Origin: Nitrospirota bacterium
Lineage (GTDB): Bacteria; Nitrospirota; Nitrospiria; Nitrospirales; UBA8639
Length of the DNA: 38,977 nt
Assembly (NCBI GenBank): GCA_003695915.1
Contig: RFGF01000109.1
Span: 1 to 38,977, forward strand
Direction of reading: 5' to 3'
Under the pieces are notes generated by a model. It was not told the origin of the DNA, ran no database searches, and saw only the letters and a program-made list of their open reading frames with translations. The translations under genes were made by a program, and so were the position numbers. Below are positions 6,200-38,977 of the stretch, one piece after another (positions within the stretch are counted from its first letter, which is position 1; each line of letters begins with the position of its first letter).

Positions 6200-6286
6200 G
6201 CCCCGATGGTGGAACTGGCAGACACGCCCAACTCAAAATCTGGTTCTCGCAAGAGAGTGGAAGTTCGACCCTCCCTCCGGGCACCA
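6200..6286 (+). tRNA. tRNA-Leu(CAA)-like, degenerate
   Basis: An 87-nt sequence with class II leucine tRNA layout. It has a D arm GTGG...CAC, an anticodon loop CTCAAAA giving CAA, a long variable arm TCTC-GCAA-GAGA, TTCGA in the T loop, and a 3' CCGGGCACCA that includes an encoded CCA. Base pairing is imperfect: one mismatch in the acceptor stem (C-C at pair 5), two in the anticodon stem and one in the T stem. The compact variable arm is intact. This looks like a decaying or duplicated tRNA gene, of the kind used or left behind by integrating elements, rather than a fully functional one. Confidence 0.65.
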
Positions 6287-9516: not shown

Positions 9517-9815
9517 CATAATTCATCTTCCGGAAAAGGGTGAACCCGGAAGACCATCGATGGCGCAGGGTAACGCCACACCCCGTTGCCTTTGGGATGC
9601 GCGAACCGTCCCGAGATTTGCGGTTCGCACCGGCTTGTCAGATCGGAATCGCACCCCGGTGCTTCGCCGGGCCTGCGTCGGGTTTGTTTGTCCGGCGGCC
9701 GGCAAACAGCGTGCTTGGACGGCAGGGCGGATACGACCTGTGGAGAGCACGATCTCGAATGCCTGCTCAACGGCCAAGCAATACCCACACGATCCAAGTA
9801 CCTCACACCGAAATC
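9517..9815 (+). ncRNA. Densely structured RNA candidate, IscB omega-RNA (HEARO)-like
   Basis: There is no convincing protein here. Consecutive perfect stems are visible: TCTTCCGG/CCGGAAGA (9526-9533 with 9546-9553), TGGCG/CGCCA (9561-9565 with 9574-9578), GCGAACCG/CGGTTCGC (9601-9608 with 9621-9628), CCCGG/CCGGG (9655-9659 with 9667-9671), GTTTG-T-CCGG/CCGGCAAAC (9686-9707) and TGCTTGG/CCAAGCA (9712-9718 with 9774-9780). The opening CTTCC/GGAAG hairpin and a later GCGGAT..GACCTGTGGAG stretch resemble published omega-RNAs as I recall them. No iscB follows: a reverse transcriptase does. The alternative is a reverse-transcriptase-associated RNA, though I see no long retron-type msd hairpin. Confidence 0.5.
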
Positions 9816-9816
9816 C

Positions 9817-9882
9817 GGTCTTCAAGGCCGGGACAAACTCGGAGCCTCCCCGCCCTCCTGCGTTTGCCCCCACTTGAAGACC
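9817..9882 (+). promoter_or_regulatory. 10-bp inverted repeat just upstream of the reverse transcriptase
   Basis: GGTCTTCAAG (9817-9826) is the exact complement of CTTGAAGACC (9873-9882), with 46 bases between. The right arm ends 18 bases before the ATG. A small CTCC/GGAG stem next to it covers the ribosome binding site. This may control translation of the reverse transcriptase or form part of its RNA template. Confidence 0.45.
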
Positions 9883-9900
9883 TCCTCGCGGAGCGAACCA

Positions 9901-10818
9901 ATGCGCCGTATCCTTATCCCCAAATCCCACCGGACCTGGCGGACAATCTATGTCCCCGGTCCCGCTGAAAAAGCCCGATTGCGCGGGCTCGTCCCTGTGC
10001 TCCATCGCCTCGAACGGTCTGCGGCCGAACGACACGGCACAATTCATGTCGCCCACGGCTTCGTCCCGCACCGCTCGCCGGTCACCTGCGCACTCGCCCA
10101 TCTCAACTGCGCCTGGACACTCACGGCAGATCTTGCCGACTGGTTCGATCACATCCATGAGTCGCAAATCGCTCACGGGATCGAACTCGGTGGCGGCGAT
10201 CCCAACGTGGCCGCTCAACTTTGCGTGGACGGCGCCCCCCAGCAGGGCCTTCCCACTTCGCCCATCGCCGCGAATCTGGCCGCCATCCCCATGGATCGGT
10301 GGATCCTCGATCGTCTGCCTCCCGACGCCGTGTACACGCGCTACGCCGACGATCTCCAGCTTTCACTACGTACCGCACCGCACGATCCTCAGGCCATTGT
10401 CGGTATTCTGGAGGAAGCCGCCTCCCATATGGGCTGGCAGATCGCGCCCCACAAAACACGCATTTACGATGCTCGGCGCGGACACCGTATCATCGTCGGC
10501 ATTGCCGTTGGGTCGCGATCGATCGCCATTCCTCGTACCACCCGCCGGCGACTGCGTGCCGCCCGGCACCAGCGGCCACAACATCCGCACACCCAAGGGC
10601 TCGAAGAATGGTGTCGCTTGTTGTTGCCTCGCGCATTGCGACCGCGACGACGCCTCCGATTCGAACAGGCAACCGATACGCCTCCAGCCGGTCTGTCTTC
10701 GCTTTCGACACCCTCATCTCGTATTTCTCATGCAGGTACGATCGAGCGGTCCCAGCAGCACAAACCAGGCCTTCGGCGGGTGTTTCGATTCAGCGTTCGC
10801 AATCAATCATCGCCTTAA
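9901..10818 (+). CDS. Retron/UG-like reverse transcriptase, compact
   Basis: A 305-residue reverse transcriptase whose ATG at 9901 has GCGGAG upstream. Motifs in order: AHGFVPHRSPV (51-61), the motif A region with Asp77 in TADLADWF, QGLPTSPIAANLA (115-127), the catalytic YADD (148-151) and IIVGIAVG (197-204), with a short arginine-rich thumb after it. The HGF..S and QGLPTSP wording and the small size fit retron or ungrouped (UG) reverse transcriptases, not group II intron maturases: there is no maturase or HNH domain. The last ~70 residues look unconserved. It precedes the Bergerat-fold ATPase by 14 bases, so the two are probably co-transcribed. The template is unknown; the structured RNA directly upstream is the obvious candidate. 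Confidence 0.85.
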   Translation: MRRILIPKSHRTWRTIYVPGPAEKARLRGLVPVLHRLERSAAERHGTIHVAHGFVPHRSPVTCALAHLNCAWTLTADLADWFDHIHESQIAHGIELGGGDPNVAAQLCVDGAPQQGLPTSPIAANLAAIPMDRWILDRLPPDAVYTRYADDLQLSLRTAPHDPQAIVGILEEAASHMGWQIAPHKTRIYDARRGHRIIVGIAVGSRSIAIPRTTRRRLRAARHQRPQHPHTQGLEEWCRLLLPRALRPRRRLRFEQATDTPPAGLSSLSTPSSRISHAGTIERSQQHKPGLRRVFRFSVRNQSSP

Positions 10819-18167: not shown

Positions 18168-18506
18168 ATGTTTTTGTGCGATTTTTGTGCATGCCATCCT
18201 CCGTCTTGGACTTATCCTTGTACTGATTTTGAATCGCCGGAAATGAGCTTTTCTGTTTCGAAGGGCAACTGGGCAGCCTGCAACGACTGTTACCAGCTCA
18301 TCGAGGCCCGCGATACCCACGCACTCATCCAGCGCTCTGCCACCGCTTTTCTCTCTCGAACAGCGGAAGTCCTTCCTCAAGAACATTTGCCCTCACTCGA
18401 ACATATTTGCGAATATCTCGAAAAACTCTATACCGAATTCGAGCGCCATCGGACCGGCGATCCGCACCCCTTTGATCAAGAACACACCGCCAGCCATGCG
18501 CCGTAA
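18168..18506 (+). CDS. Zinc-site protein, copy 1
   Basis: A 112-residue protein with CDFC at residues 4-7 and ACNDC at 37-41, the likely four zinc ligands. YPCTDF lies between and RHRTGDPHPF near the end. The gene at 19002 shares CDFC, the YPC..F motif, the LACNVC pair and EHRTGPAKPF. It ends 11 bases inside the RadC gene. The family occurs on plasmids and ICEs without an assigned role. Confidence 0.65.
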   Translation: MFLCDFCACHPPSWTYPCTDFESPEMSFSVSKGNWAACNDCYQLIEARDTHALIQRSATAFLSRTAEVLPQEHLPSLEHICEYLEKLYTEFERHRTGDPHPFDQEHTASHAP

Positions 18507-19005
18507 CCTTTTGTCCTTCCTCCTCCGTTCCCATCAGTTTCAACCGTCTTCATCGGGCGAATGGCTTGCCGGTCCTTGGATCACTGTCCACATCAATATT
18601 GAAGAAACTACGGCGACTTTCCCACGTCCACCGCTCGATACACCGAATGCGTTGTATCGATACACTCAGCCGTTGCTGGCCAATCAAGACCGCGAATATA
18701 TGCTGCTCGTCCCACTCGATGCCCGGTATCTTCCCCTGGGCATCCATCTTCTTAGCATCGGAACCGTTAACTATGTTCCGGCTCACCCCCGGGAGGCCTT
18801 CAAGGTCTTGATCAACACCAATGCCGAAACCTATGCTCTCATTCACAATCATCCTCACGGCGATCCACTTCCCAGCCAGGAAGATTGGACATTCACCGAG
18901 CGGTTCATCGACATTTCGCGGCTCATGGAAATCCCCTTGAGCGAGCACCTCGTCGTCGGCCACAATACGTATTACTCTTTCGCCAAAGAGAGCGGACTGT
19001 TTTGA
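18496..19005 (+). CDS. radC: Short RadC-family (JAB/MPN) protein, copy 1
   Basis: A 169-residue MPN-fold protein. The metal site reads ALIHNHPHGDPLPSQEDW (HxH...S..D), preceded by LVPLDARYLPLGIHLLSIG and HPREAFKVL. It lacks the N-terminal helix-hairpin-helix of chromosomal RadC, as usual for the element-borne form. The biochemical function of RadC is still unsettled. It is sandwiched between two zinc-site paralogues with overlaps at both ends, so the three are a unit. Confidence 0.85.
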   Translation: MRRNLLSFLLRSHQFQPSSSGEWLAGPWITVHINIEETTATFPRPPLDTPNALYRYTQPLLANQDREYMLLVPLDARYLPLGIHLLSIGTVNYVPAHPREAFKVLINTNAETYALIHNHPHGDPLPSQEDWTFTERFIDISRLMEIPLSEHLVVGHNTYYSFAKESGLF

Positions 19006-20657: not shown

Positions 20658-21086
20658 ATGACCGACCGTACCGCTCCCAACACCACTCCCGCTCAAGCTG
20701 CTCCATCGGCGCCGACCGCTAACAGTCATTCGGCGTCCGACAGCCCGCAGTTCATCAACAAAGTTCAGATCACCGGCCATCTCGGCCGGTATCCGGAACT
20801 GCGCTATACACCCAACGGCAAGCCTGTGATCTCGTTTTCGATTGCCCATACGGAGCGCTGGAACGATGCCAACGATGTCAAGCGCCAGCGCACGCATTGG
20901 TTTACGGTCGTCGCCTACGGAGACAAGGCCGAACAATGGGCTAGCGATCTCAATACAGGCGATTATGTGCGCATCGACGGCGCGCTCTCCTATCGGGAAT
21001 GGGAACAGGAAGACGGGAGAAAGCGGAGCGTTGTCGAGATCAAAGCGTGGGATCTAGAAATCCTGCGCAAAAAACAGGCAAAATAA
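20658..21086 (+). CDS. ssb: Single-stranded DNA-binding protein, copy 1
   Basis: A 142-residue SSB with an OB-fold from about residue 32: NKVQITGHLGRYPELRYTPN, SFSIAHTERW, RTHWFTVVAYGDKAEQ and GDYVRIDGALSYREWEQEDG. It coats single-stranded DNA during replication or conjugative transfer. The acidic C-terminal tip of chromosomal SSBs is missing (it ends LRKKQAK), and there is an added Ala/Thr/Pro-rich N-terminal arm of ~30 residues. So it probably does not recruit the usual SSB partners. Confidence 0.92.
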   Translation: MTDRTAPNTTPAQAAPSAPTANSHSASDSPQFINKVQITGHLGRYPELRYTPNGKPVISFSIAHTERWNDANDVKRQRTHWFTVVAYGDKAEQWASDLNTGDYVRIDGALSYREWEQEDGRKRSVVEIKAWDLEILRKKQAK

Positions 21087-22507: not shown

Positions 22508-23014
22508 ATGTCTGCCGTATCCGCTCCGATCCGTACACCTGTTCGCCGACCGTCGGGCGAGGGTCTTGCTCCCTACGCGTGGGTTGAGGGACCCTTGATC
22601 ACCCTGCACGTCGCCTATCATGGCACGCTTCAGGATTCACCGATCCGCTCGTCTCGCGATGCGGCATCCTATGTTGAACCCTATCTTCTGCAGAGCGATC
22701 GCGAGCTCATGCTGATGGTGCCGTTAAACACGCGGCACAAGCCGCTCGGCGTACACGTCGTCAGCATCGGCTCGCTTTCGCAGAGCATCGTCCATCCCCG
22801 GGAGGTCTTCAAGGCGGCTATCTGCGTCAATGCCGCCGCGATCATCCTGGCGCACAACCATCCAGGCGGCGATCCTGAGCCCAGCGACGAGGACAAAACG
22901 CTCACACAACGACTCCAGAGCGCCGGCGGGATTCTGGGAATCCGCCTCCTCGACCATCTCATTCTGGTCGATAGCGGACGCTGGTTTAGCTTTGCCGATC
23001 AGGGGCTGCTTTGA
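22508..23014 (+). CDS. radC: Short RadC-family (JAB/MPN) protein, copy 2
   Basis: A 168-residue protein with TGGAGG before the ATG. MPN metal site ILAHNHPGGDPEPSDED, preceded by LMVPLNTRHKPLGVHVVSIG and HPREVFKAAI and followed by LDHLILV. It is closer to the canonical RadC consensus than copy 1 (HNHPGGD versus HNHPHGD). Two diverged copies 4 kb apart suggest separate roles or separate acquisition. Confidence 0.9.
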   Translation: MSAVSAPIRTPVRRPSGEGLAPYAWVEGPLITLHVAYHGTLQDSPIRSSRDAASYVEPYLLQSDRELMLMVPLNTRHKPLGVHVVSIGSLSQSIVHPREVFKAAICVNAAAIILAHNHPGGDPEPSDEDKTLTQRLQSAGGILGIRLLDHLILVDSGRWFSFADQGLL

Positions 23015-23796: not shown

Positions 23797-24102
23797 ATGA
23801 CTCACCATCTCAAGACAGCCATCTTTCCTATTCAAGGAGTCCAATCGGAGTACGAGCTGCAAACAATCGATCTTATTTTCGCAATGATTGTCGTGGGTCT
23901 TGTTGTATTCGCTGGTTACATAGCCATCAGATTATGGCGCGATTATGCGCTCTCTCAAGCCATACATCGCAACTTAAGTTATATTGACGAAATCCTTGAA
24001 CGACTCCGCCGCATCAATGATGAAGTAGCACGCAAAAAGCGCAAAGCAGAAAACGAGAAGAAGGGATCGGCCGTTAACAATCCGACCCGCTTGCACGGGT
24101 AG
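23797..24102 (+). CDS. Single-pass membrane protein with coiled coil
   Basis: 101 residues: one membrane helix (IDLIFAMIVVGLVVFAGYIA, about 24-43) followed by a charged helix rich in Arg, Lys and Glu (ERLRRINDEVARKKRKAENE). The composition is less GC-rich than its neighbours. Possibly part of a membrane complex; no family recognised. Confidence 0.55.
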   Translation: MTHHLKTAIFPIQGVQSEYELQTIDLIFAMIVVGLVVFAGYIAIRLWRDYALSQAIHRNLSYIDEILERLRRINDEVARKKRKAENEKKGSAVNNPTRLHG

Positions 24103-24138
24103 GTCTCACCTCTTTGCAATCTTCTAATGGGAGGAATT

Positions 24139-24591
24139 ATGTTGCGCTTTCGTCGTGGCGATCTCTTCGCATCCCAGGCGCAGACACTGGTCAACCCCGT
24201 CAATTGCGTTGGCGTCATGGGTAAGGGTTTGGCGCTGGCTTTTCGGCAACGCTTTCCCCGCATGTATCATGATTATCTCGCCCGATGTCGGCGAGGGGAG
24301 GTGAGGCCCGGGCAACCGTATCTATTTGCTGAAACGACGCCATGGATCCTCAATTTCCCGACCAAGGACCACTGGCACAATCCATCCAAGCTTTCTTGTA
24401 TCGAGGATGGATTGAAGGCCCTTGTCGACCAGATCCCGACTTGGGGGATCGAGTCTCTCGCACTCCCTGCCTTGGGATGCGGGTTGGGCCAGCTTTCATG
24501 GGATGCTGTCAGGCCGTTGCTGGTGCGTCATCTCGAGCCATTGGACATCCCTGTCGAAGTCTATCTTTTGCCGTTTAATCGAAAGCCATGA
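24139..24591 (+). CDS. Macrodomain protein, DarG-like ADP-ribosylglycohydrolase fold
   Basis: A 150-residue stand-alone macrodomain. The ATG at 24139 follows GGGAGGAATT, so it is preferred over the in-frame ATG at 24127. FRRGDLFASQAQTLVNPVNC, VGVMGKGLALAF (25-36) and LALPALGCGLGQLSW form the ADP-ribose pocket typical of the DarG antitoxin and related hydrolases that remove ADP-ribose from nucleic acid. No DarT toxin is seen next to it. It may protect the element against host ADP-ribosylation or be a DarG-derived orphan. Overlaps the next gene (ATGA). Confidence 0.88.
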   Translation: MLRFRRGDLFASQAQTLVNPVNCVGVMGKGLALAFRQRFPRMYHDYLARCRRGEVRPGQPYLFAETTPWILNFPTKDHWHNPSKLSCIEDGLKALVDQIPTWGIESLALPALGCGLGQLSWDAVRPLLVRHLEPLDIPVEVYLLPFNRKP

Positions 24592-30898: not shown

Positions 30899-31094
30899 AT
30901 ACGCCCTCCTCGCTCTCTCTTTTTTCCGCCACCGGCACGATCGGATTCCGCTCTATCGGAACCCCAAACGGAAGCGGCAGGTCTATGTTTCACGCTATGC
31001 CGAATCCTGCCGCATTGCGCGAGAATACATCCGGCTTGCGCGGGAACAGGGTTGGCGGGGGAGTATTCGAGATGCACTCGACCGCTTGCCATGA
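30870..31094 (+). CDS. Small basic unknown protein
   Basis: 74 residues, strongly basic: NPKRKRQVYVSRYAESCRIA then REYIRLAREQGWRGS. GGAGG lies 11-14 bases before the double ATG (30870 or 30873), and the start is inside the methyltransferase gene in another frame. Probably binds nucleic acid (charge only). Confidence 0.55.
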   Translation: MMEQRRTGLEYALLALSFFRHRHDRIPLYRNPKRKRQVYVSRYAESCRIAREYIRLAREQGWRGSIRDALDRLP

Positions 31095-32994: not shown

Positions 32995-33225
32995 TTGGGT
33001 CAAGTCATTATTCGCAACCTTGATAACCATATTATCAACACACTCAAGCAGCGTGCCAAATTTCATGGGCGTTCATTGGAAGAGGAACTGCGAACCATTC
33101 TTACCACAGCAGTCAAGTTGCCCGCGGAAGAAAGAGTTCGTATGAGTCAGACCATTCGAGCGATGAGCCCAAGAAGATCCAAAACCGATTCGACAAAACT
33201 TATTCGCAAGGACCGTGAACGGTGA
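32995..33225 (+). CDS. FitA/VapB-type ribbon-helix-helix antitoxin
   Basis: A 76-residue protein, TTG start with AGGAGG upstream: VIIRNLDNHIINTLKQRAKF and HGRSLEEELRTILTTAVKLP are the FitA ribbon-helix-helix signature. It neutralises the VapC encoded directly downstream, whose GTG overlaps its stop by 4 bp, and binds the double palindrome in front of it. Intact, unlike the two modules in the left half of the window. Confidence 0.88.
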   Translation: MGQVIIRNLDNHIINTLKQRAKFHGRSLEEELRTILTTAVKLPAEERVRMSQTIRAMSPRRSKTDSTKLIRKDRER

Positions 33226-33638
33226 AAGTCGTGGTTGACGCCAGTGTCGCCGTCAAGTGGTTTGTCGAGGAACCACGCTCACGGCATGCTGAACGATTGC
33301 TCCAACAGGCCACTACTCTCCTCGCACCAGATTTGCTTGTTGCCGAAGTGCTGAATACAGCGTGGAAGAAATATCGATCTCAGGATATCACCGCCGATCA
33401 TGCCAAGACTATCGTTCTGGCGTTGCCAGCCATGATCGATCTACTAATCCCATCGCTCGAACTCGCTGAATCGGCTCTGAAGTTAGCGCTTCACCACAAC
33501 CATCCCGTTTACGACTGCCTCTATGTCGCCCTTGCCCAACGTGACGATTTGCCACTCGTTACCGATGATGCCAAGCTTATCGCTCTCGCCAAACGCGCAA
33601 AACTCGGCCATCGCATTACACCGCTCAGCCAATTCTGA
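33222..33638 (+). CDS. vapC: VapC-type PIN-domain RNase toxin
   Basis: A 138-residue PIN-domain protein. VVVDASVAVKWFVEE carries the first catalytic Asp (Asp6), VAEVLN the Glu, PVYDCLYVALAQRDD and LVTDDAKL the remaining acidic residues. VapC toxins cut RNA, often tRNA or rRNA loops. GTG start coupled to the antitoxin stop (GTGA). The frame is intact, so this is the one clearly functional module. Confidence 0.9.
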   Translation: MKVVVDASVAVKWFVEEPRSRHAERLLQQATTLLAPDLLVAEVLNTAWKKYRSQDITADHAKTIVLALPAMIDLLIPSLELAESALKLALHHNHPVYDCLYVALAQRDDLPLVTDDAKLIALAKRAKLGHRITPLSQF

Positions 33639-33661: not shown

Positions 33662-33702
33662 GGCCCGCTCACGCGAGCAGGGTTGTTCTCAGGGTGATTT
33701 TT
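33662..33702 (+). promoter_or_regulatory. Repeated stem-loop motif, copy 1
   Basis: GGCCCGCTCACGCGAGC forms a GCTC/GAGC stem-loop, then AGGGTT, a short spacer and AGGGTGATTTTT. The order stem-loop, AGGG(T/C)T, and G(T/C)(G/A)ATT about 15 nt later is shared with the copies at 34902, 35279 and 36652. It lies ~95 bases upstream of the STAS/HATPase start. Confidence 0.6.
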
Positions 33703-33770
33703 GAAATTGAAAGTCGGCAAAGACGCCGGCTCTGTCGTCCTCGACGACAGAGAGAACGAGATTAGTTCTC
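33684..33770 (+). promoter_or_regulatory. Leader with mutually exclusive stems upstream of the STAS/HATPase gene
   Basis: A perfect 10-bp hairpin CTCTGTCGTC/GACGACAGAG (33730-33739 with 33743-33752, loop CTC) is followed by GAGAAC (33752-33757). That hexamer can pair either with GTTCTC at 33765-33770 or with the identical GTTCTC at 33685-33690, inside the repeated motif. The two pairings exclude each other, as in an attenuator or riboswitch. Confidence 0.5.
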
Positions 33771-33796
33771 AACGCGTACGATATGGAGGAATACCC

Positions 33797-34828
33797 ATGC
33801 CACCAATAATTGACGAGCTACCGCTTTCTATTTATGATCCCGACGCTTGGACAATTTCTTTGGTACAGGAACGCACGCCCACCGTGCCTATTCTTTGGAA
33901 TTTACCACCACAACTTAACGCCCTCAGTGTCTTTGAATTCATTCAACAACTCGGTGCAATCCACAATAGCAATGCTGGTCCTATCATTATAGATTTTTCC
34001 CGTAATTCTTGGGTTGAACCGAGTGGCCTTGCCATCCTTGCCGCACTTATCTCCTACGTTCATTCCCATCACCATGCTATTCGGCTGGAAGGCCTCGACC
34101 AATGCCAAAATCTTACCTATTGGCAACGAAGCAACTTTTTCAACACGCTAGGATTCCAAAGCGAAGAATCATTTTTCCGACATGATCGATCAACCACCCT
34201 CCTTGAGATTTCACGATGCACATGCGATTTTGACGCAGATGAAATCTCCAAACGCTTTGGTGCGTTGGCTAACCGTCTTCAGCCGGAAAGTGCGCGCCTC
34301 GTTTCTTACCTCGCACAAGAAGGCCTACGGAACGTTGTTGATCACTCTACCGTCGCCGGCTATGCTGCGGCGCAAATCTATCCAAACAAGCATATCATCG
34401 AGTTTGCCATCGCCGACGCTGGAATCGGTATCCGCAAGAGCCTCGCGCGCTCTCCTGTTCACACATTCGACAATGATCAGGAGGCGATCGAGAATGCGCT
34501 CAAGCTCGGCATTTCATCGCGATTCCATCTCGGAGTCTCGAATCCCAATCGCAGCAACAATCTCGGGATCGGACTCCATGCGACCGATCGACTTGTCCGT
34601 CATCACCGCGGACTCTGGCTCTTGGCGAGCGGGTCTGCCCTTCGCATCGTCGATGAAACGGGAACGGCCCATTACCGCCGACTGCCTATCAACCTTCCCG
34701 GCGTTTTCTCCTCGATTCGACTCCCGCTCGCTACTCACGCTGCTGAGACGGACCAGGTTCTGAGGCAAATCCGGCAGGAGCACACAACACTGGTCAAAGC
34801 CTTTGCCCGTAAACGACACCCCCATTGA
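33797..34828 (+). CDS. STAS-like plus HATPase_c regulator
   Basis: A 343-residue protein; ATG 33797 is chosen because GGAGG precedes it. The N-terminal ~105 residues resemble a STAS domain: PIIIDFSRNSWVEPSGLAIL, with Ser76 where anti-anti-sigma factors carry the phosphorylated Ser. From ~150 to 320 is a GHKL ATPase: YLAQEGLRNVVDHS (Glu175, Asn179), ADAGIGI (206-212) and NNLGIGLHA (254-262). STAS proteins and RsbW-type kinases normally work as separate partners, so a fusion could self-regulate. Target and trigger are unknown. The leader is highly structured. Confidence 0.75.
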   Translation: MPPIIDELPLSIYDPDAWTISLVQERTPTVPILWNLPPQLNALSVFEFIQQLGAIHNSNAGPIIIDFSRNSWVEPSGLAILAALISYVHSHHHAIRLEGLDQCQNLTYWQRSNFFNTLGFQSEESFFRHDRSTTLLEISRCTCDFDADEISKRFGALANRLQPESARLVSYLAQEGLRNVVDHSTVAGYAAAQIYPNKHIIEFAIADAGIGIRKSLARSPVHTFDNDQEAIENALKLGISSRFHLGVSNPNRSNNLGIGLHATDRLVRHHRGLWLLASGSALRIVDETGTAHYRRLPINLPGVFSSIRLPLATHAAETDQVLRQIRQEHTTLVKAFARKRHPH

Positions 34829-34901
34829 TCAGACCGCTTTCTCTCTGCCGGCTTCAAGCCGCCTCACACGGGATGCTGCAGCCAATCACCTGATCATCAT
34901 C

Positions 34902-34944
34902 CAAGGCCCGCTGACGCGGGCAGGGCTCTGCTGGAAGCGATTCC
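34902..34944 (+). promoter_or_regulatory. Repeated stem-loop motif, copy 2
   Basis: GGCCCGCTGACGCGGGC forms a CCCGC/GCGGG stem, followed by AGGGCT and, 14 nt on, GAAGCGATTCC. It is not directly followed by a gene: the next start is 35355. Confidence 0.55.
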
Positions 34945-35079
34945 CACCGGAGGGCTGACCACCCTCTGTCTTCCCGCCCCATCCTCTTCCCTCTTACTCC
35001 GGTACCGGCCGCCCACCGGTACCGGCCCTGCCTTTTGTCAACGCACTCGTCCCCTCTCCCTGTTGGAGAGCGGGCAGCC

Positions 35080-35119
35080 GGAGTCCTTCGGTTGCTTGCC
35101 GCAGGACTCCAGCCTTTTT
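35080..35119 (+). terminator. Terminator-like hairpin
   Basis: GGAGTCC (35080-35086) pairs with GGACTCC (35104-35110), then AGCC and TTTTT (35115-35119). The loop is long (17 nt). It may end a transcript reading through from the STAS/HATPase gene or from an RNA within this gap. Confidence 0.45.
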
Positions 35120-35278
35120 CTCTCTTTGCCTGGGGACTCCCGGGCGGCTGGAGCCATCCTCGCTCCAGTCTTCTCAGTAGTGGCTGGTCCGGGGACTCTC
35201 GGATCCACTGCTGACCTCGCGCGTGGGTGCCACGGCATCCGCGCTGCGTTGCTCATTCAATCTTCCATCTGACCCCTT

Positions 35279-35320
35279 GGGCGCGCTGACGCGCGCAGGG
35301 TTTTAAGCAAAAGCAATTTT
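35279..35320 (+). promoter_or_regulatory. Repeated stem-loop motif, copy 3
   Basis: GGGCGCGCTGACGCGCGC forms a GCGCGC/GCGCGC-type stem with a TGAC loop, followed by AGGGTT and AAAAGCAATTTTCA. It lies ~35 bases upstream of the 35355 gene start, whose GGAGG follows directly. Confidence 0.55.
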
Positions 35321-35354
35321 CAATTTGGTTTCTTTCATACAGGAGGGATGTGGC

Positions 35355-36626
35355 ATGAGCTACAACGAGACCTTTTGCAACACTTTCATCGCCCACCACG
35401 AAGAGGATGATGACGACCAAACGCGACATTTGCTTCCGGATCACGTACACCTCTCCCCAGAAGACGATCCTCAAGAGAGGGTAGAGGAGATTTTGAGAAA
35501 GTATGAAGAAGAGTACGAAAAGACTGCTGACTCTGCTCGCGAGCGCTATTGGCGCCGAGAAACACGGTTCGAAGAAGACGAAGACGAACCCTCCCTTCCT
35601 ATCATTTCACGAACCGCCAGCCGGGCTCCCAAAGAAGTCCAACGGTTTATCGTCTTGCCGGATGGCCGTCGCGTCCGCAGGCTCTATAGCAGGGACTCGA
35701 AGGACTTTCGCATTGAAACGTTGTGCGGTATCCGACAGATCTTGCCGATCAACCAAGCCTTGTCTGTCTTCCGCCATAAGACCGGCAACCGCGAATGCCC
35801 GCGTTGTCACGGCCGACATCTGCCGGATCCTGTAGTGCATGACCAGGTTGCATCGCATATCAATCCCCCAAAACCTGCCTGCCCCAAATGCCAGCACAGC
35901 GCAACACATCTTTATCATGAAGATGCCTACACCATCGCCTGCGCTATGTGTGGGTATCGCCTGTATCTCCCGCTTCCTACACTGAGCGACGAGGAAGTGG
36001 ACCACAACGAGCAGGTTATCGACGAGTGGATTTATGCGCACGATGTCAATGCGCTAGATGATTCGGTCAACGAACCATTAGATGAGTACGATGATTCAAT
36101 CGCTTTCACCGAACACCTCAGCGTAGTCGAGATTTCGGCCGAGAGCCTGCCGGAAACGATCGCCGAGATCGGGGACCAGCTCCATTGGCCGGCGTTTCGG
36201 CTCTACAAGACACGTTCCCCATTCCGTCAAGCGATGCTGAATCGTACCCTCCAGGATGGTCGATTCGACCAACTCAATATGATCCGCTGGGTGGCCGCCG
36301 GACGCCTGGCGGACGAACTCGGTGATATCAGCGCGAAGAAAAGCGCTGAACTCGTCGAATGGCTGTGGCAACTCAACCAGGCAACGCTCGAATCCATGGC
36401 CGGCGATGATGACAGCCCGATCCCCTGCCTTGCCCATCCGACTATGGATCTGTTCGAGCCCAGCGAGATCATGATTCGCGGGCTTCGAACGCACCTGCTC
36501 ACCATTATCAGCCGGTGCAAGCCAACACCGGCCACTATCAACGGGCTTGCTCACCGGTTCCGGCTTGCCCCTGCCACTATAGAAACGCTCATGGCTCAGC
36601 AGCGATCCGTCTCGACGGCTGCATGA
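35355..36626 (+). CDS. Large acidic protein with two zinc-ribbon pairs
   Basis: A 423-residue protein with a very acidic first 80 residues (HHEEDDDDQTRH, RFEEDEDEPSL), then CPRC, CPKC and CAMC sites between residues ~150 and 210, a second acidic segment and a helical C-terminal half (RQAMLNRTLQDGRFDQLNMI, then NQATLESMAGDDDS). ATG 35355 has AGGAGG upstream. The zinc ribbons and acidic segments suggest a nucleic-acid transaction or transcription role. No family recognised. A motif copy precedes it and another follows. Confidence 0.6.
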   Translation: MSYNETFCNTFIAHHEEDDDDQTRHLLPDHVHLSPEDDPQERVEEILRKYEEEYEKTADSARERYWRRETRFEEDEDEPSLPIISRTASRAPKEVQRFIVLPDGRRVRRLYSRDSKDFRIETLCGIRQILPINQALSVFRHKTGNRECPRCHGRHLPDPVVHDQVASHINPPKPACPKCQHSATHLYHEDAYTIACAMCGYRLYLPLPTLSDEEVDHNEQVIDEWIYAHDVNALDDSVNEPLDEYDDSIAFTEHLSVVEISAESLPETIAEIGDQLHWPAFRLYKTRSPFRQAMLNRTLQDGRFDQLNMIRWVAAGRLADELGDISAKKSAELVEWLWQLNQATLESMAGDDDSPIPCLAHPTMDLFEPSEIMIRGLRTHLLTIISRCKPTPATINGLAHRFRLAPATIETLMAQQRSVSTAA

Positions 36627-36651
36627 GCCGCCCAAACCCTCGTCTGAATAC

Positions 36652-36695
36652 CGGGGCCTTCGGCCAGGGTTGGCAGACAGGGTGATTTTCAGCAA
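36652..36695 (+). promoter_or_regulatory. Repeated stem-loop motif, copy 4
   Basis: GGGGCCTTCGGCC forms a GGCC/GGCC stem with a TTCG loop, then AGGGTT and AGGGTGATTTTCA, the last identical over 12 bases with copy 1 (CAGGGTGATTTT). It lies ~57 bases upstream of the second ssb. Confidence 0.6.
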
Positions 36696-36750: not shown

Positions 36751-37092
36751 ATGGCGTGCAACGTAGTCATTTTACAAGGTCGGTTAACTCGAGACCCTGA
36801 GGTTCGTTACACAACGAACGGGACGCCTGTCAGCGGCTTCACGGTGGCCGTTGATGGGTACAAGAAAGGCGATGAGGCCAGGACCGAATTTATCGACGTA
36901 ACAGTATTCGGAAAGCAGGCTGAGACCGCCGGACAATACCTAACCAAAGGGCAGGAAGTATTAGTAACAGGCCGGCTCCAGCTTCAACGCTGGGAGACCC
37001 AGGATGGGTCTAGGCGATCCAAATTGCAGGTGATCGCAAATCGGATCAGCTTCGGCGCCAAGCCGCGCCAGGCTCAACCCCAAGCGGCCTGA
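36751..37092 (+). CDS. ssb: Single-stranded DNA-binding protein, copy 2
   Basis: A 113-residue SSB starting ACNVVILQGRLTRDPEVRYT, with GFTVAVDGYKKGDEARTEFI, DVTVFGKQAETAGQYLTKGQ and VLVTGRLQLQRWETQDGSRR, the complete OB-fold. The chosen ATG (36751) follows AAGGAGGTACGCC. Like copy 1 it lacks the acidic C-terminal tip (it ends in RQAQPQAA), so it may not recruit the usual SSB-interacting proteins. It is followed by a strong terminator, so it forms a single-gene unit under the motif-bearing leader. Confidence 0.92.
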   Translation: MACNVVILQGRLTRDPEVRYTTNGTPVSGFTVAVDGYKKGDEARTEFIDVTVFGKQAETAGQYLTKGQEVLVTGRLQLQRWETQDGSRRSKLQVIANRISFGAKPRQAQPQAA

Positions 37093-37672: not shown

Positions 37673-37954
37673 ATGACAACCACCTCGCTGCTTCGAAAAG
37701 CCAAGCCTGTCAATATTCGTGAAGCTCAAGCGAGTCTATCCAAACTCATTCGATCACAGTCTATCTCAATGGTGCTTTCGCACGGTAAACCCGTCTCCTT
37801 TCTCATTCCTTATGAAGAATTGCTCGATCTTGTCGAGACACTCGATGAACTCAAAGATAGGCGTCTGCTGGAAGAAATCAAACGGGCACGAGCTGAATAT
37901 CGACAGGGAAAAGCCGTACCAGCCGAGCGACTATTAAATAAAATGAGTTCATAA
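37673..37954 (+). CDS. Phd/YefM-family antitoxin (orphan)
   Basis: A 93-residue protein with VNIREAQASLSKLIRSQSIS and VLSHGKPVSFLIPYEELLDL, the Phd/YefM DNA-binding fold, then an acidic helix (ETLDELKDRRLLEEIKRARA) that would cover a toxin. No toxin gene follows: the next base of sense sequence is the right end of the IscB element. The toxin may have been lost when that element inserted, or may act from elsewhere. Confidence 0.8.
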   Translation: MTTTSLLRKAKPVNIREAQASLSKLIRSQSISMVLSHGKPVSFLIPYEELLDLVETLDELKDRRLLEEIKRARAEYRQGKAVPAERLLNKMSS

Positions 37955-37980: not shown

Positions 37981-38000
37981 CCCCCGCCTTTAGGCGGGGG
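37981..38000. repeat. Right-end hairpin of the IscB element
   Basis: CCCCCGCC-TTTA-GGCGGGGG is a perfect 8-bp stem with a TTTA loop. The iscB stop codon (TAA, minus strand 37990-37992) sits in the loop. This is the typical 3' terminus of IS200/IS605-like IscB elements. Confidence 0.75.
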
Positions 38001-38977
38001 AGGAAAGCGCGGCTCCGCGTTGGGTAGTTTGTACATACCCATACCCGTCCGCTCGTTGCAGCAGGCGGCAAGAGCGGGCATGGACTCCTTGCACGATGCC
38101 CGTCGGCGTCTGAACGTTGAAACTCCCGCTGGCGCGCACGGCGACACGGCCCCGGTAACGGCCTTTCTTTTTGCCCCGGGCGACGACCGCCTCCACCAGG
38201 TCTCCGGTCTGGAACCCCAAGTGGCGCTTGCGGCGGGTGAGATACCCGCGCGGGAAACCATCCCTGGTGAGCCGGGTTCGCTGGTAGCAGCCCCGGCCGG
38301 TAGCGTGAATGCCAAGAACCGGACGTTGCCAGCCCTCGACTGCGTCCACCGCGCCCACGCACAACGCATCCAGGGCGTGTGTTTTGGGCAGGCTGAATCT
38401 GGTGCGATTCCACTTCGTCCGCCCGCCCGTGCCAACTTCGACCGGCAGGTCCGTCGCCTTGAGCCGGTTCCATAGCGCCCACCGCACGCCGTTGACCGCG
38501 GCGGCGTCCCGGAGCGGGGCTTGCCGCTGCGCCTCGATGCGAGCAAGCCGCCCGGGATCCTGAGCCAGAAAGTCAGACACATCCCGATTGCCCTTTTTCT
38601 GATTGCAGGACAGGCAGGCCAAGGTCAGGTTCGATACCCGATCGGACCCACCTCGGCTGCGGGGATGGATGTGATCGATGGTGAGCGGCACCCCTTCCGC
38701 GTCACAGTAGGCGCACCGGCGGCCCCACTTCTCCAGGAGGTATGCGCGAACCTCGTAGCCGAACAATTCGCCCCGCTGATACTCGACACCTGAGATCTCC
38801 GGATTCTGCAACGCCTGGGTGTCGAACCTCGCCAACTCCTGCGAGAGGGCCGCAACCGGCACCCACCGGCAAAGGCGCGCCACCCAGGCCATCGTCGTCT
38901 CGACGCGGTGTCGCAGACTGGGTGCCAGCCAGCCTGCGGGACGCCGCCGGTTGTCGAACCGCGGCGCGCGGTAGCGA
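37990..38977 (-). CDS. iscB: IscB RNA-guided nuclease, N-terminus beyond window
   Basis: The frame is open to the right edge. Visible: RYRAPRFDNRRRPAGWLAPS (bridge-helix zone), ELARFDTQALQNPEISGVEY (RuvC-II), an HNH domain CAYC...TIDHIHPRSRGG...LACLSCNQKKGN and RuvC-III with THALDALCVGAVDAVEG, then the C-terminal beta domain. IscB is the ancestor of Cas9 and cuts DNA guided by an omega-RNA normally encoded just upstream, here outside the window. All visible catalytic residues (HNH His, RuvC-III His and Asp) are intact. RuvC-I and the N-terminal PLMP domain are not visible. Confidence 0.92.
   Translation of the reverse strand, partial: RYRAPRFDNRRRPAGWLAPSLRHRVETTMAWVARLCRWVPVAALSQELARFDTQALQNPEISGVEYQRGELFGYEVRAYLLEKWGRRCAYCDAEGVPLTIDHIHPRSRGGSDRVSNLTLACLSCNQKKGNRDVSDFLAQDPGRLARIEAQRQAPLRDAAAVNGVRWALWNRLKATDLPVEVGTGGRTKWNRTRFSLPKTHALDALCVGAVDAVEGWQRPVLGIHATGRGCYQRTRLTRDGFPRGYLTRRKRHLGFQTGDLVEAVVARGKKKGRYRGRVAVRASGSFNVQTPTGIVQGVHARSCRLLQRADGYGYVQTTQRGAALSSPA

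Follow-up and report, generated by a model that had tools for sequence, protein, structure and literature searches.

A repeated hairpin signal, best read as a start signal of establishment genes, in conjugative elements of Nitrospirota

The 38,977-nt stretch of Nitrospirota DNA analysed here (contig RFGF01000109.1, hereafter the window) carries a short stem-loop motif several times over in front of different genes, which raises the question of what such a repeated hairpin does. An earlier note on this DNA had described four copies of a GC-rich stem-loop followed by AGGG(T/C)T and by a second box about 15 nt further on, and had taken the changing stems with their preserved pairing as a sign of selection for RNA structure. 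Comparison with related genomes leads to a broader answer: the most fitting reading of the hairpin is a start signal, present many times, of the establishment genes of a conjugative element, working either through single-stranded DNA or through RNA.

Copies in the window and anatomy of the signal

Inspection and a both-strand scan for perfect GC-rich stems abutting AGGG(T/C)T recovered the four copies where they had been placed (W1-W4), together with a weak match at 31048 (4 bp, 7-nt loop). The four copies are real but are not the whole set, as the final covariance model, run with its filters off, detected a weaker fifth copy (W5). The copies and the genes 3' of them are as follows.

24083-24124 (+): W5, stem ACCCG/CGGGT, AGGTC, GCAATC box; 18.8 bits, E 0.00019
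24139-24591 (+): macro-domain protein (PF01661), directly downstream of W5
33662-33699 (+): W1, GG, stem 33663-33668/33673-33678, loop TCAC, AGGGTT from 33679, GTGATT 33694-33699; 38.4 bits (covariance model)
33797-34828 (+): 343-aa protein without Pfam match; weak local match to the DrmA profile
34905-34942 (+): W2, stem 34906-34911/34916-34921, loop TGAC, AGGGCT, GCGATT at 34937; 35.3 bits
35280-35317 (+): W3, stem GCGCGC 35281-35286/35291-35296, loop TGAC, AGGGTT, AGCAAT at 35312; 35.1 bits
35355-36626 (+): 423-aa protein downstream of W3, zinc ribbon (sub-threshold match)
36653-36687 (+): W4, stem GGCC 36655-36658/36662-36665 (4 bp), loop TTC, AGGGTT, GTGATT from 36682
36751-37092 (+): ssb, single-strand DNA-binding protein, downstream of W4 (PF00436, 1e-32)

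The stem of W1 has one mismatch in the register common to the other copies, and W4, whose stem is too short for the covariance model, was identified by the stem scan and by eye. The placement of three copies upstream of genes held, and so did that of W2 in a gene-free region, as the roughly 370 nt 3' of it hold no gene. Of the gene identities that had been proposed, that of ssb holds and that of the zinc ribbon has a sub-threshold match behind it, but the putative STAS/HATPase gene behind W1 has no Pfam match. The second box proved exact in W1 and W4, where AGGGTGATTTT occurs at 33691 and 36679, and looser in W2 (AAGCGATTCCC) and W3 (AAGCAATTTTC); with up to one mismatch AGGGTGATTTT has four matches, against 0.55 expected from shuffles.

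Twenty-four copies align without gaps save for one loop base, giving GG, the stem GCCCGC/GCGGGC, A(A/G)GG(T/C), a pyrimidine-rich spacer and GTGATT. The signal thus spans about 40 bases, with A(A/G)GG(T/C) abutting a GC hairpin of 6 bp in nearly all copies and some 10 free bases before the second box. In 26 non-redundant copies this box has the consensus GTGATT and begins 15 nt past the stem, and its six columns carry more information than any other window beyond +5, a value matched by none of 1000 permutations. Pairing of this box with the loop (TCAC with GTGA) is confined to W1 and C54, a copy on another contig of the same genome.

The claim that the stems change while pairing is kept was confirmed by counting pairs: 97.9% of the cells are paired and ten double changes occur, which none of 500 shuffles equalled, and the signal was lost when the stem partner was slid. 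Among 233 pair cells in 39 copies, several alternative Watson-Crick pairs are found and not a single G-T (G-U) pair. Certain recurrent variants carry the 3' arm GCTCGC instead of GCGAGC, so that two middle pairs are broken and the remainder kept; they lie at L022:14970 (before DUF488), in copy 292d (L098:5328) and, in G015, G019 and G022 (L005, L006, L004), upstream of the zinc-ribbon gene.

Of 39 copies, 29 have a TNC triloop (10 TGC, 9 TCC, 7 TAC, 3 TTC), an approximate tally in that it includes near-identical relatives (336a-c and 390a-c repeat 292a-c) and mis-registers W1, 15g and 292d, and the tetraloops are mostly TNAC. The central triloop base may be any of the four letters. Read on the opposite strand, these loops become GNA or GTNA closed by C-G, that is d(cGNAg)/d(cGNNAg), and W4 and 319e retain the closing C-G pair and the TNC loop with stems that otherwise differ. 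GNA and GTNA loops closed by C-G are the classic, very stable DNA mini-hairpins, and TNAC (UNAC) loops are stable in RNA as well. Energy tables gave equal values for 3-nt loops on either strand and did not discriminate DNA from RNA.

The GC hairpin is followed by A(A/G)GG(T/C) and not by the T run of an intrinsic terminator, no -10/-35 sequence lies inside the 6-bp GC stem, and the window and the related loci gave no Rfam match at curated thresholds and only chance-level matches in a permissive scan. The earlier view that this is no known riboswitch was upheld to that extent. The signal is a real element without an Rfam entry, and no description of it was found in the literature searched.

Spread and genetic setting

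Covariance models (R1, and R2 built from 24 copies) extended the family beyond the window, to some 40 copies spread over 11 Nitrospirota genomes. Clusters of copies were found on contig C54 of the same genome and in G015, G019, G022, G319, G292, G283, G336 and G390, and the fragmented genomes G424 and G432 hold single copies. Orthologs of the zinc-ribbon gene, 35-37% identical, occur in G015, G019 and G022 with ssb following them as in the window; the carriers are the Nitrospirales MAGs NPIRA01, NPIRA02 and NPIRA04. The intergenic regions by these orthologs carry the signal, for example GGCTCGC-ACAC-GCGAGC-AAGGTGT before ssb, and many more copies lie on the surrounding contigs. No relatives of the gene downstream of W1 were found among the genome contigs searched, and none of the zinc-ribbon protein among the plasmids searched. 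Viral contigs and other bacterial genomes gave only single exact-pattern hits, of which the ones examined lay inside protein-coding frames and were attributed to chance; an isolated match at G005:C83 was judged likewise.

The element that carries the copies has a conjugation system of the F type, and the copies are grouped on one of its strands. F-type TraC was detected in 10 of the 11 genomes with copies, and all five relatives that have no copies lack it; in G319 the copies, all on the minus strand at about 103-120 kb, adjoin a transfer region of the F type that encodes TraC and TraG. In G015, G019, G022 and contig C54, the copy-bearing genes have as neighbours a ParM-like gene and one for the large subunit of exonuclease VII. 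Based on the TraC pattern and these recurring neighbours, the window is most likely part of a conjugative element, either integrative or a plasmid. An HD-domain protein encoded beside the transfer genes of G319 may be a relaxase; Pfam assigns it the HD domain only. The element also encodes a CHC2/Toprim primase (L102:5656-6669).

The window holds several further genes of interest.

6200-6286 (+): tRNA-Leu (CAA) within the element
9586-10818 (+): reverse transcriptase (RVT_1, YADD motif); best PADLOC matches are retron-type RT models
18472-19005 (+): RadC-like reading frame, recognised by eye; typical conjugative-element gene, no hairpin upstream
20658-21086 (+): second ssb, typical of conjugative elements, no hairpin upstream
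22508-23014 (+): RadC gene, typical of conjugative elements, no hairpin upstream
32995-33638 (+): VapBC-like toxin-antitoxin pair (FitA-like RHH antitoxin and PIN), directly 5' of W1
37673-37954 (+): Phd/YefM-like antitoxin, 3' of ssb
37990-38892 (-): IscB-like RRXRR/HNH nuclease, of which the C-terminal part extends to the window end; another, full-length one lies in a related element (L098:8864-10342)

Orthologous genes (RNase H, ssb, DUF488) retain their upstream copy across genomes, mostly at 34-100 nt from the start codon. RNase H has a copy just 5' of it in G319, G390, G292, both G336 loci, G283, G000:C54, G015, G022 and G019; the proteins are 30-48% identical among the copy-bearing loci, with G432 giving a weak match only. 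Further copy-bearing genes encode two kinds of ssb product, DUF488, YAcAr and macro-domain proteins. Alignments of the ortholog groups showed that the few bases just 5' of the hairpin vary, and that the hairpin and the leader are conserved.

Other copies stand apart from this arrangement. Start codons are far from W2, C54 and 283b, C54 lying about 300 nt from its RNase H gene. In four genomes (G015, G019, G022 and G424) a copy sits a few bases 3' of the YAcAr gene and faces the convergent xseA; G319 has a counterpart. Since this copy is conserved and stands behind the final gene of its row, the signal cannot be a 5' leader and nothing else. Between the C54 copy and its RNase H gene (L022:16300-16400, minus strand) there is a sequence similar to a tRNA 3' half (GGGTTCGAGTCCC), which ARAGORN did not call as a tRNA.

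How the signal may be read

Two readings of the hairpin come close in plausibility. The one ranked first, which we hold tentatively, is a tripartite start signal for establishment genes of the leading-region type, acting as a DNA hairpin of the template strand while the DNA arrives single-stranded. In this mechanism, the element, single-stranded after transfer (or supercoiled), would let the strand complementary to the genes fold into a very stable mini-hairpin of 6 bp with a GNA or GTNA loop and a C-G closing pair. A polymerase or primase would recognise this mini-hairpin and start RNA synthesis shortly after it, near A(A/G)GG(T/C), yielding a short leader that carries its own ribosome-binding site; the shortest distance from stem to ATG, 34 nt in 292b, is compatible with initiation right after the stem but not after GTGATT. 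The genes so started, for SSB, RNase H, macro-domain, DUF488 and other proteins, would be those required during DNA entry into the recipient.

This DNA start site is suggested by the one-strand clusters of copies beside F-type transfer genes with the TraC pattern, by the downstream genes (ssb, RNase H, macro, DUF488, YAcAr), and by the other-strand GNA/GTNA loop with its C-G closing pair, which persists in W4 and 319e. It also draws on the lack of any G-T pair in the 233 cells, on the variable sequence just 5' of an otherwise conserved hairpin and leader, on the gene-less copy against xseA in five genomes and the distant C54 copy, and on the precedents of Frpo and phage N4 (PMC9849209, PMC11541004, PMC4496689). 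Several points weaken it: TNAC loops are stable in RNA too, any base can stand at the centre of the loop where the N4 polymerase needs a purine, the -35/-10 boxes are not rebuilt as they are in Frpo, two stem pairs are broken in some copies, and GTGATT at +15 has no part in the model. Furthermore, a search of seven genomes for a T7-like RNA polymerase (PF00940), run without a positive control, found none, and in the pLS20 family strand polarity excluded the same idea (PMC8708921). A scan for sigma70 promoters 5' of the hairpin had no power to decide, with hits at p<0.1 for 7.7% of copies and for only 11% of the control divergent genes.

The reading placed next, a real possibility in our estimate, keeps the RNA nature that the earlier note had proposed: hairpin, A(A/G)GG(T/C) and GTGATT would be bound in the mRNA by a protein of the element or host or by another RNA, opening or closing the ribosome-binding site and co-regulating the genes post-transcriptionally. 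Stem covariation, conserved unpaired flanks and the closeness of most copies to a start codon (34-87 nt) agree with this, and element-encoded zinc-ribbon proteins could be the RNA binders. The ribosome-binding site is paired above shuffles (p<0.1) in 13 of 30 leaders, or in about 7 of 18 groups with orthologs counted once, and such helices are conserved among orthologs, with strong ones in groups a, b and c. However, many leaders show no sequestration (W4, ssb, 319d, 319f and 292a-c, for example), W2, C54 and 283b are remote from a start codon, and the copy with no gene after it is conserved. G-U pairs, moreover, are wholly missing from stems that are otherwise variable. That the element is structured and conserved, with compensatory changes, was upheld; its RNA nature is putative, as the absence of G-T pairs, the GNA-type loop of the opposite strand and the gene-less copy fit a DNA hairpin at least equally well.

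Two further explanations appear unlikely. An intercistronic signal that protects the ends of mRNAs, or on which an antitermination complex assembles between the genes of long transcripts, would suit the copies in gaps between same-strand genes, the one directly past a last gene and the boxA-like spacers of some copies (TGCTCTTT in 22d). The aligned copies, however, share no consistent boxA, and a general boxA in the spacer was not supported; no U-run follows the stem, and copies lie at very different distances from the stop codon before them but close to the next start. Still less probable is a double-stranded operator, a palindrome for a dimeric global regulator of the element comparable with the KorA/KorB sites of IncP plasmids. 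A near-palindrome repeated before many genes of one element is what such a regulator would call for, but the half-site spacing varies between 3 and 4 bases, the half-site sequences change in coordination, and the conserved flanks are one-sided only.

Returning to the template-strand DNA hairpin, a more specific version, in which the conjugative-element family expresses its entry genes while its DNA is still arriving as a single strand, from N4-like mini-hairpin start sites placed separately before many genes and read by a polymerase or primase, is regarded as rather doubtful as a whole. Under either leading reading, the hairpin probably marks where expression begins of genes whose products protect and process the DNA as it enters. 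The family of copies marks one kind of conjugative element and its probable early genes, several of which have no known function. Following it up might reveal what reads the hairpin, be it a polymerase or an RNA-binding regulator. Expression of protective genes before the DNA becomes double-stranded is known for a few enterobacterial plasmids only, and a compact signal may serve it in an environmentally important phylum that includes nitrite oxidisers.

Comparison with known systems

Cis-regulatory RNA motifs of the Rfam type, discovered by comparative genomics, are likewise short covarying hairpins with conserved flanks before functionally linked genes. The Nitrospirota signal matches none of their families and its RNA nature is putative; its compensatory stem changes are equally expected of a DNA hairpin. 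EGeRS1 of the pLS20-family plasmids, for which strand polarity excluded a single-stranded promoter, is also a repeated inverted-repeat region, found on a single conjugative plasmid before several of its establishment genes (PMC8708921), yet it is multi-branched and 400-600 bp long against about 40 nt here.

A parallel in setting is provided by the Frpo/ssi single-stranded promoters, hairpin-forming sequences upstream of ssb and other entry genes in the leading regions of F and ColIb-P9 (PMC9849209, PMC11541004). As in those plasmids, several stem-loops per element precede leading-region-type genes such as ssb, here on the same strand of an element with F-type TraC/TraG. Frpo stem-loops are far larger and rebuild -10 and -35 boxes, which the Nitrospirota copies do not, whereas the present signal is a 6-bp mini-hairpin with putative single-strand activity.

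A parallel in form is offered by the early promoters of phage N4, where a template-strand hairpin with a sheared G-A pair in its loop is read by the virion RNA polymerase with the involvement of SSB (PMC4496689). The Nitrospirota signal differs from these in its additional GTGATT box at +15 and in a central loop base that is not restricted to purines. What the two have in common is a hairpin of 5-7 bp, 6 bp in nearly all the copies described here, and a 3-nt G-N-A loop closed by C-G, the form taken on the complementary strand by 29 of 39 triloops.
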